Source: Xanthobacter sp. YC-JY1
GTDB lineage: Bacteria > Pseudomonadota > Alphaproteobacteria > Rhizobiales > Xanthobacteraceae
DNA: 64,000 nt
Direction of reading: 5' to 3'
NCBI RefSeq assembly: GCF_021730305.1
Contig: NZ_CP032674.1
Span: forward strand, 2,775,001 to 2,839,000
Under the pieces are notes generated by a model that searched no databases, had not been told where the DNA came from, and saw only the letters and a list, made by a program, of their open reading frames with translations. Positions 44,116 through 47,887 of this stretch are shown in pieces. The position numbers and the translations under genes were made by a program. The stretch's first letter is position 1. Each line of letters opens with the position of its first letter.

Positions 44116-45171
44116 TCAGCCGAGGGCAGCAATGCGTGCGTCCAGCGCCTCGCCCACCGGAAGGTCCGCCACCTCTTCCACCGCGAGGCCGCCGCCCGCG
44201 AGATGATGGACCATGGGGAAGAAGCGCCCGGCGCAGCCCTCGCTCTTCGCCAGCATGTCAGTCCAGAGCCGGTCGAAGGTGTCGAGCACCGGCCCGAGTG
44301 GCGCCACGGGAAGCTGCTGGCCGGAATAGCGCGGGAATTTGTTGGTCAGCTTCTTCCAGTCGTCCTTGAGCGCGTCGCGCAGCACGGGGTCAGCGGTGAG
44401 GCGGGCATCACGGCCGCCGCGCTCGTAGGTGGCGCGGGTTTCCATCAAGGAGAGGAGCAGCGCGTTGGACCGGCTCCGCAGCAGCGGCCGCAGGCGTTCC
44501 ACGAACAGCTTGCGCAGCGCATCCACATAGTCCGGATCGGAAAGGCCGACCTCCTGGCCGCCCACTGCGGGACCGGGGGCGAACTTCGCCGCCGCCGTGG
44601 CGAAGCGTTCTGCCGGCCAGTCCCCAGCCGGGCGGGAGGTGAGGAGCAGGACAATGCCGGGCGGGATCGCTCCAGGGCCGGGCAGGAGCGCGAGGGCCTC
44701 AGCATCCGCCCCTTCCAGCCCGTCGATGCAGACCAGCAGGCGCTTGGCCCCCTGCCCCGTTGCCGCCCCGGCGAGCGCCGCGAGCCAGCCGGCGAAGGTG
44801 TCCGGACTGGCGGATGCCCCCGACGCGTCCGGCGCGGGACACGCGAATTCGGCCTCAAACGCTGCCTTCAGCGCCTCGACCAGCGCCGCCGGGCTCGCGT
44901 CTGCCGCAAGGCCCACGGCGATGGCGCGGGCGCCGCTGGAGATGGCGCTGTCGATGCCCTCAGGACTGCCGTCGTTGGCGGTCCGCCGGGCGATGATGCC
45001 GCGCACGAACCGCGTCTTGCCGGCGCCGGCAGGCATCCGCAGCCAATAGAGGCCGCTTTCATGGCTGACAAGGAAGGAGCGGAACGGGGTCCGCACATGG
45101 GCGGGGGACACGTAGTCCGAGTCGGTCTCAAGGGAGAGCGGGAACGGCTGGGCTGTCAGCTGTGCTGTCAT
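44116..45171 (-). CDS. Compact STAND/NACHT-like P-loop NTPase, unknown function
   Basis: A 351-residue cytoplasmic protein. It has a P-loop variant at residues 46-53 (MPAGAGKT, lacking the first glycine), a Walker B-like LLVCIDGLEG at about 145-154, and a sensor block LLLTSRP at about 175-181. This trio is typical of STAND-type NTPases. No repeat sensor or effector domain follows; the last 120 residues are helical (DWKKLTNKFP, LGPVLDTFDRLWTDML). The start at 45171 has GGAG six bases ahead. Its role is unknown. Confidence 0.65.
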   Translation of the reverse strand: MTAQLTAQPFPLSLETDSDYVSPAHVRTPFRSFLVSHESGLYWLRMPAGAGKTRFVRGIIARRTANDGSPEGIDSAISSGARAIAVGLAADASPAALVEALKAAFEAEFACPAPDASGASASPDTFAGWLAALAGAATGQGAKRLLVCIDGLEGADAEALALLPGPGAIPPGIVLLLTSRPAGDWPAERFATAAAKFAPGPAVGGQEVGLSDPDYVDALRKLFVERLRPLLRSRSNALLLSLMETRATYERGGRDARLTADPVLRDALKDDWKKLTNKFPRYSGQQLPVAPLGPVLDTFDRLWTDMLAKSEGCAGRFFPMVHHLAGGGLAVEEVADLPVGEALDARIAALG

Positions 45172-45724: not shown

Positions 45725-46543
45725 TCAGCCCACGGTCTCGATGCCGAGCACCTTCTCCAGTACCCCGGCGGGGTCTTCATCCAGCATCAGGGACGTGCCC
45801 ATGAGCAGCGCCTTGGCGCCGGCCGTGGCGAGCCGCTCCCGGTCTTCCGCCGTGCCGAGGCCGCCTTCCGCCACCACGAAGGCCTTTTCCGGCGGGATCA
45901 GCGGGATCAGCGCCTCGCAGGTGCCGGGCACGAGCTCGAAGGTGTGGATGTTGCGGTTGGTGACGCAGATGAGGTCCGACCCCGCCGCCAGCGCCGCTTC
46001 CACATCGGCGGGGGTATGCACCTGAACCAGCACGTCGAGGGCAATGGAGGCGGCGCGCTCGCGATAGGCGGGAAGGTCCGGCCCCAGCAGCGCCGCCGAG
46101 AGCACCACCGCATCCGCGCCGGCGAGCCGCGCCTCAAGGATCTGGTATACGTCGTAGATGATGTCCTGGGCGAGGATGGTCAGGTCCACCGCGCCGCGCA
46201 CGGTGGCGAGGTCCGAATAGGAGCCGCGGAAGGATTGCCGCTCCACCGCCACCGAAAGGGCCGCCGCGCCCACCGCCTCGAAATCCTCGGCCAGCGCCTT
46301 GTAGGGCACCATGGTCTTCAATGCCGGCTCGAACGGCGAGCCGCCCTTCAGCTCGCAGATGATGCCGGGCTTGCCGGTGGCCCGGAAGGCGGCGGCGAGC
46401 GCGCCCTGGAAGCCGCGGGTCATGGGCATCTCGCCCACCTTGCCCTGGATCTGGCCCAGCGAGCGGCGGGCCTTGGCCTTGGCGAGCTGGTCGCGGCGCT
46501 GGAGGAGAAACGGCTTCAGCCGGCTGCTTTCGGGCAGGATCAT
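45725..46543 (-). CDS. TrpC-like TIM-barrel protein with altered catalytic residues
   Basis: A 272-residue protein clearly homologous to indole-3-glycerol phosphate synthase: ICELKGGSP (E64, K66), YQILEARLAGADAVVL, and the phosphate-binding end LLMGTSLM. However, the usual KDF lysine is Q126 (LAQDI), the LVEVH glutamate is Q174, the first asparagine of INNR is T195, and the ESG serine is G227. These positions carry the general acid/base chemistry and substrate contacts, so normal activity is doubtful. It is not near other trp genes. A true trpC probably exists elsewhere. Confidence 0.8.
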   Translation of the reverse strand: MILPESSRLKPFLLQRRDQLAKAKARRSLGQIQGKVGEMPMTRGFQGALAAAFRATGKPGIICELKGGSPFEPALKTMVPYKALAEDFEAVGAAALSVAVERQSFRGSYSDLATVRGAVDLTILAQDIIYDVYQILEARLAGADAVVLSAALLGPDLPAYRERAASIALDVLVQVHTPADVEAALAAGSDLICVTNRNIHTFELVPGTCEALIPLIPPEKAFVVAEGGLGTAEDRERLATAGAKALLMGTSLMLDEDPAGVLEKVLGIETVG

Positions 46544-46762
46544 GAAAGAACGTCCACGGCAAAGGAGGCAGAGAAACGAGGCGCGCTAACGAACGGGACC
46601 AAACGCCCCGATTTGAAAAAGTCGCTTCAGCTTCACAGATTTCGCGCGCTTTGGCCATGCCGCTTTCGCACCGCGGCAGAGGCGGCGGCGCGGTTGGCCC
46701 TTTCCTCTCGCAGCGCAACGCGCGATGATCCGCCCATTCTTTGCTTGATCGAGTTTTTGAAG

Positions 46763-47095
46763 ATGTTCACGCGCGTCTGCAAAGCGGAAACCGTTGCCGA
46801 AGGTGGCATGCGGCTGGTGATCGCCGACAATCACCTCATCGTCCTCGCCTGGCCCGACAATGGGGAGATCCGCGCCTTCCAGGGCGTCTGCCCCCATTCG
46901 AACGCGCCGCTCAACGAGGCGGAGTTCGACGGCACCGTCCTCGTCTGCCCCATCCACCGCTGGACCTGGGACCTGAATTCCGGCGCCCCCCTCGAGCCGC
47001 AGGAAAGCGCGCTCGCGGAATATCCGGTGAAGGTGGAAGATGGCGTCGTCTATATCGACACGGAAGGCATAGAGCCCCTGTTCGCCGCGCCCTGA
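46763..47095 (+). CDS. Rieske [2Fe-2S] ferredoxin
   Basis: A 110-residue soluble Rieske protein. The cluster ligands are C43-x-H45 and C62-xx-H65 (CPHSNAPL and CPIHRWTWDLNSG). Its size and the LxxYPVKVEDGVVYID end resemble electron-transfer ferredoxins of aromatic or alkene monooxygenases and NirD-like proteins. No oxygenase or reductase gene is adjacent, so its electron partner is unknown. It diverges from the TrpC-like gene, sharing a 219-base regulatory gap, and precedes an SDR gene by 84 bases. Confidence 0.9.
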   Translation: MFTRVCKAETVAEGGMRLVIADNHLIVLAWPDNGEIRAFQGVCPHSNAPLNEAEFDGTVLVCPIHRWTWDLNSGAPLEPQESALAEYPVKVEDGVVYIDTEGIEPLFAAP

Positions 47096-47179: not shown

Positions 47180-47887
47180 GTGACAGATGAGACCGCCGCC
47201 CAGACCGCCATCATCGTCGGCGCAGGCAAGGGGCTGTCCGCCTCCCTCGCCCGCCGCCTCGCCCGCGAGGGCTTTCGCGTCGCCCTCGTGGCGCGCGACG
47301 TGGACAAGCTCGCCCCCCTCGTCGCCGAGACCGGGGCACGCGCCTACGCCGCCGACGCACAGAACGCGCCCGCCATCGAAGGCGTCTTCGCCGAGGTGGA
47401 CAAGGCCTTCGGCCCGCCCGACCTCGTGGTGTTCAACGCCTCCATGCGCTACCGCGGCCCGGTGGAGGTGCTGGACCCGGCCGACGTGATGGAGGCCTAT
47501 TCCGTCGGCGCCTTCGCCGGCTTCCTCACCGCGCAGGCCGCGACGCGGCGCATGCTGGCGCGGGGACAGGGCTCCCTCTTCTTCACCGGCGCCACCGCCA
47601 GCGTGAAGGCCATGCCCCATTCGGTGCCCTTCGCCATGGCGAAGTTCGCCCTGCGTGCGCTGGCGCAGGGCCTCGCGCGCGAACTCGGCCCGCGCGGCAT
47701 CCATGTGGCGCACTTCATCCTCGACGGCGGCATCGCCTCGTCCTGGGCGACGGCGGGAGAGCCAGGTCCGGCGGACAAGTGGCTCGATCCCGACGCCATC
47801 GCCGAGACCTACCTGTCCGTCCACCGCCAGCACCGCTCGGCCTGGACCTGCGAGCTGGACCTGCGGCCATGGGTGGAGAAGTTCTGA
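47180..47887 (+). CDS. Short-chain dehydrogenase/reductase family protein, catalytic Tyr replaced by Phe
   Basis: A 235-residue Rossmann-fold SDR. The nucleotide site is VGAGKGLSASLARRLA (residues 13-28), with VFNAS at 85-89. The catalytic YxxxK is FAMAK (F151, K155), so the usual proton-donating tyrosine is missing. A group of SDRs with this FAxAKFALRALAQ pattern exists and is poorly studied. GTG 47180 with CGGAG ahead is the start. It may act as a non-classical reductase or as a binding protein. Confidence 0.85.
   Translation: MTDETAAQTAIIVGAGKGLSASLARRLAREGFRVALVARDVDKLAPLVAETGARAYAADAQNAPAIEGVFAEVDKAFGPPDLVVFNASMRYRGPVEVLDPADVMEAYSVGAFAGFLTAQAATRRMLARGQGSLFFTGATASVKAMPHSVPFAMAKFALRALAQGLARELGPRGIHVAHFILDGGIASSWATAGEPGPADKWLDPDAIAETYLSVHRQHRSAWTCELDLRPWVEKF

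Follow-up and report, generated by a model that had tools for sequence, protein, structure and literature searches.

What does a protein with the fold of indole-3-glycerol phosphate synthase (IGPS, TrpC) do once catalytic residues of that enzyme have been replaced and its gene adjoins a Rieske ferredoxin gene instead of tryptophan genes? IGPS is a textbook model of (beta/alpha)8-barrel evolution and a favoured scaffold for enzyme design, and the question is raised by a locus in Xanthobacter sp. YC-JY1, whose genome is one contig of 5.39 Mb. The window, that is, the whole stretch of DNA analysed here, comprises 64,000 nucleotides of this contig (NZ_CP032674.1, positions 2,775,001 to 2,839,000), and the following features of it are discussed:

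45725-46543, minus strand: IGPS/TrpC-like protein of 272 aa, from the ORF, PF00218 and the alignment (K110Q, E159Q, N180T, S211G; S. solfataricus numbering)
46544-46762, no strand: divergent intergenic region of 219 bp, with a block, CACAGATTT...TTTGGCCA, common to the orthologues
46763-47095, plus strand: Rieske [2Fe-2S] ferredoxin, T4moC/TmoC-like, with the cluster motifs CPH and CPIH; closest structure 1vm9 (E 6e-18)
47180-47887, plus strand: SDR-family oxidoreductase, a conserved neighbour 3' of the Rieske gene that also occurs in genomes without the pair

The TrpC-like ORF is genuine, and the sequence-only reading, which had called its product a TrpC paralogue from a fold-level match, is borne out: the protein scores 180 bits against PF00218 (cut-off 27), covers profile positions 5-249 of 254 and thus belongs to the homologous family, and among PDB entries it matches the IGPS 3tsm best (E 6e-39). 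Its nearest named relative is X. aminoxidans, with 94% amino-acid identity. On the other hand, it misses all NCBIfam TrpC equivalog cut-offs, the best score being 176.6 bits versus 260, and it is 34% identical to the host's own TrpC. The latter is encoded at G000:C1:2704733-2705497 (310 bits; G000:C1 is the host contig), directly 3' of genes reading as trpG and trpD, in a trpG-trpD-trpC cluster; a normal trpC is therefore present elsewhere, and the absence of one, which had been named as grounds for abandoning the idea of an altered TrpC, is not found. Beside the TrpC-like gene no trp genes were recognised in the neighbourhoods read, a linkage that is common in TrpC but not strictly defining, and the neighbour is indeed, as had been pointed out, a Rieske gene, adjacent and divergent.

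To place its residues, the window protein and its orthologues (n = 12) were aligned with 30 canonical TrpCs and S. solfataricus IGPS. Residue numbers follow the S. solfataricus enzyme; the residue conclusions are independent of this reference because each of the columns concerned is invariant across the 30 canonical TrpCs. Canonical TrpC (PF00218, EC 4.1.1.48) and the paralogue share full-length homology at 33-40% identity together with E51, K53, R182, E210, G212 and G233, whereas K110, E159, N180, S211, L83 and I133 are replaced in the paralogue, which also lacks the trp context. The four substitutions named from the sequence are correctly placed, since window residues Q126, Q174, T195 and G227 align with K110, E159, N180 and S211. 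Equally correct was the description of E64 and K66 as kept, these being E51 and K53, which are present in all 12 orthologues, and the phosphate-binding end does retain its phosphate-binding glycines.

Whether the four changes recur in orthologues had been proposed as a check, and they largely do so in the 12 available, but positions 110 and 159 vary. Position 110 is Gln in 11 and Arg in one; position 159 is Gln in 10, the window protein among these, Met in one and Glu in one; position 180 is Thr in 10 and Ser in two; and position 211 is Gly in all 12, whereas Lys, Glu, Asn and Ser, respectively, are found in 30 of 30 canonical TrpCs. One orthologue, from genome G011, combines R110 and E159, and the M159 belongs to another. 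Neither Gln can be indispensable to any new chemistry, because both positions vary, and the label "acid-to-amide exchanges" fits E159Q only, the other changes being Lys-to-Gln, Asn-to-Thr and Ser-to-Gly. Moreover, at 18 columns the 30 canonical TrpCs all share one residue and the paralogues all share another; these columns include S211G as well as changes beyond the four first noticed: K54G, A55G, S58F, L83A, F112I, I133S and G178C. The invariant new residues A83, S133, F58, G54, G55, I112 and G211 are a better signature of a putative new site than the amides. Enrichment of invariance in the pocket is weak (p 0.049 for a broad residue set, 0.29 for a strict one), and a structure predicted for the paralogue with five sequences as input reached a pLDDT of 39, too poor for use.

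K53, K110, E159 and N180 are reported to be essential for IGPS (PMC7681013), and in M. tuberculosis IGPS a Lys-to-Arg change at the equivalent of K110 lowers kcat more than 2700-fold (PMC10591298). Since three of these four published essential residues (K110, E159 and N180) are replaced in the window protein, efficient IGP synthesis is very unlikely. Judged by its residues, the TrpC-like protein is very probably not a working IGPS. TrpC-like genes of this clade should not be annotated as trpC.

Of the 14 Xanthobacter genomes sampled, 12 have the paralogue. Outside Xanthobacter, none was found in samples of the family (392 genomes, 47 genera), the order (397 genomes) or the phylum (398 genomes), and in the class sample (385 genomes) the sole extra matches, L139 and L140, are canonical TrpCs in trp operons and not paralogues; the one aligned in full carries every catalytic residue, and two more proteins from the order of L139 and L140 have similar scores. 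No relatives of the paralogue were found on viral contigs, and the only matches on plasmids were TrpC-family proteins of less than 60% identity, most of them, among the matches listed, annotated as trpC. The reading frame is open in all 12 carriers, apart from a contig edge in genome G005, and the TrpC-like gene has a median dN/dS of 0.225; the corresponding values are 0.159 in canonical trpC, 0.198 in the SDR gene and 0.151 in the Rieske gene. The TrpC-like gene is under purifying selection and maintained as a protein-coding gene. In the tree, the 12 paralogues form a single clade outside the TrpC clade of the order, on a branch of about 1.6 changes per site, and a grouping with the TrpC of Xanthobacteraceae fails the AU test (p 0.0017); the gene did not arise by recent duplication of the host's trpC. 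When L139 and L140 are added, these canonical TrpCs of another alphaproteobacterial family become the sister of the paralogues (95/82). They are alike at the N-terminus but lie within trpD-trpC-trpF, in contrast to the paralogue clade with its very long branch, of 1.5 changes per site in this tree; as long branches are in play, this position is only a lead to the evolutionary source of the clade.

The TrpC-like and Rieske genes are inherited together. They adjoin and are transcribed divergently in 11 of 11 genomes in which the neighbourhood is assembled, the SDR gene following the Rieske gene there, and both are missing from genomes G007 and G010; in the 12th carrier, G005, the contig stops inside the TrpC-like gene, short of the Rieske position. 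The intergenic distance ranges from 179 to 299 bp across the 11 orthologous regions aligned, and despite variable flanks the block CACAGATTT...TTTGGCCA is conserved in these 11 genomes, which makes it a candidate shared promoter or operator; a sigma-70 consensus site was looked for in the divergent intergenic region and not found. On genus trees, one or two changes suffice to account for the presence of the paralogue, and as the link between the two genes comes from one genus, it represents few independent events.

The Rieske protein is a single domain with CxH and CxxH motifs, and its nearest PDB structure, T4moC (PDB 1vm9), which it resembles in single-domain size and cluster motifs, is its closest solved relative. 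In contrast to T4moC, the Xanthobacter gene is not in a monooxygenase operon, and it occurs in genomes in which no di-iron hydroxylase was detected: a profile search found no PF02332 hydroxylase in five carriers of the pair (G001, G002, G003, G004 and G009). The Rieske protein is therefore not simply the ferredoxin of a di-iron monooxygenase, and at least in those genomes its partner is something else. The host does have, outside the window, a TmoA-F-like cluster for a soluble di-iron monooxygenase, a Rieske gene included (L113 5993-9686, G000:C1:3035992-3039685), the roles in it other than that of PF02332 being a reading of the sequences; its Rieske protein is 45% identical to that of the window, and further PF02332 genes lie nearby, at about 3043206-3045110. 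Another Rieske protein of the host shares 39% identity with that of the window and is encoded beside an FAD oxidoreductase-like gene (L114 6646-8260, G000:C1:3509645-3511259), and similar Rieske matches of 37-40% are found in most genomes of the genus.

Several explanations of the locus can be weighed against these observations. A decaying trpC pseudogene would account for the lost catalytic residues, but it is scarcely credible with a frame open in 12 genomes (the G005 contig edge aside), a dN/dS of 0.22, a conserved neighbour and a gene that is not a recent copy of the host's trpC; selection and conservation refute it. It is quite improbable that the protein still works as a second, slow IGPS with other residues standing in for K110 and E159: no paralogue out of 12 has K110, the Lys-to-Arg enzyme of M. 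tuberculosis is nearly inactive (PMC10591298), N180 and S211 are changed as well, and a canonical trpC is present while the trp context is missing. In favour of a slow second IGPS are the retained K53 and E51, the proposed acid/base of the dehydration step, and the E159 of the G011 orthologue. It is also improbable that the pair is left over from, or a spare part for, a soluble di-iron (toluene/alkene) monooxygenase system that the Rieske protein would serve as ferredoxin, with the TrpC-like protein a bystander. T4moC as the closest PDB match and the 45% identity to the Rieske protein inside the host's TmoA-F-type cluster speak for such an origin, but five genomes that carry the pair lack PF02332 and the host cluster has a Rieske gene of its own.

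With the catalytic set lost and the gene conserved, the best interpretation remains the one suggested by the sequence-only reading, either an altered reaction or a role in binding. The second of these, a non-catalytic ligand-binding or regulatory protein that would bind CdRP, IGP or a similar compound, or pair with TrpC, and so tune tryptophan flux or the Rieske partner, is somewhat unlikely. It would explain why catalytic residues are lost while binding residues (K53, R182 and the phosphate glycines) are kept and why position 159 varies freely among Gln, Met and Glu, but the protein lacks any known regulatory domain, its gene does not adjoin a trp gene in the examined genomes, and a pure binder would have no obvious need of E51, K53 and E210. 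On balance, we lean towards a neofunctionalised (beta/alpha)8-barrel of the IGPS fold that would still bind a phosphorylated ligand and would work with the Rieske ferredoxin, possibly in physical contact with it.

For this neofunctionalised barrel, the old CdRP pocket would retain the binding of a phosphorylated, probably carboxylated, small molecule, which can reasonably be expected because K53, E51 and R182 remain; R182 is able to contact both the carboxylate and the phosphate of the ligand (PMC7681013). K53 and E51 have been proposed by some authors as the acid/base of the dehydration step, as cited in passages of PMC7681013 and PMC10591298, and the retained pair may catalyse a different reaction, or the protein may present or sense its ligand. 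The link to a Rieske ferredoxin suggests redox chemistry, and the ferredoxin would supply or remove electrons in the same process via an oxygenase or reductase encoded elsewhere. The most specific form of the proposal is put forward tentatively and is unlikely to hold in every part: a re-tooled natural IGPS barrel would be a new enzyme acting on a phosphorylated, carboxylated substrate and coupled to a dedicated Rieske protein, the two genes making up a redox module seen only in Xanthobacter so far. Papers on this paralogue, or on TrpC paired with a Rieske protein, were looked for in the literature and not found.

Designed enzymes built on the IGPS barrel have made clear that the scaffold can host other chemistry, and we know of no association of redox chemistry with the IGPS fold. 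The designed retro-aldolases and Kemp eliminases (PDB 4a29, 3uxa) share with the paralogue an IGPS barrel with a changed pocket, but they are man-made. How evolution itself has made use of the same pocket would become visible in a natural lineage, kept by selection, in which three of the four essential residues are gone and new ones are fixed.

The wider neighbourhood is less constant than the pair. The SDR gene is retained in G007 and G010, both of which are without the TrpC-like/Rieske pair, and it is probably the older gene, beside which the pair sits, as it occurs in genomes without the pair and as another gene lies upstream of it in G010 and G005. In these two genomes that gene encodes a glutamine/glycine-rich protein (L112 3798-4787, L116 488-1339) and occupies the place taken elsewhere by the pair. 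In the more distant G003 and G013 the positions of other neighbours (zinc ribbon, HTH, methyltransferase) are not conserved, and PADLOC gives no support for a defence role of the locus. A gene downstream of the TrpC-like gene, at 44116-45168 on the minus strand of the window, matches AAA_16 only weakly; its sequence diverges rapidly (56-82% among relatives), and in several relatives it was not found at this place. In G005, the TrpC-like gene (L043 4623-5390) and the SDR gene are on different contigs, so the pair may have moved or inserted separately.
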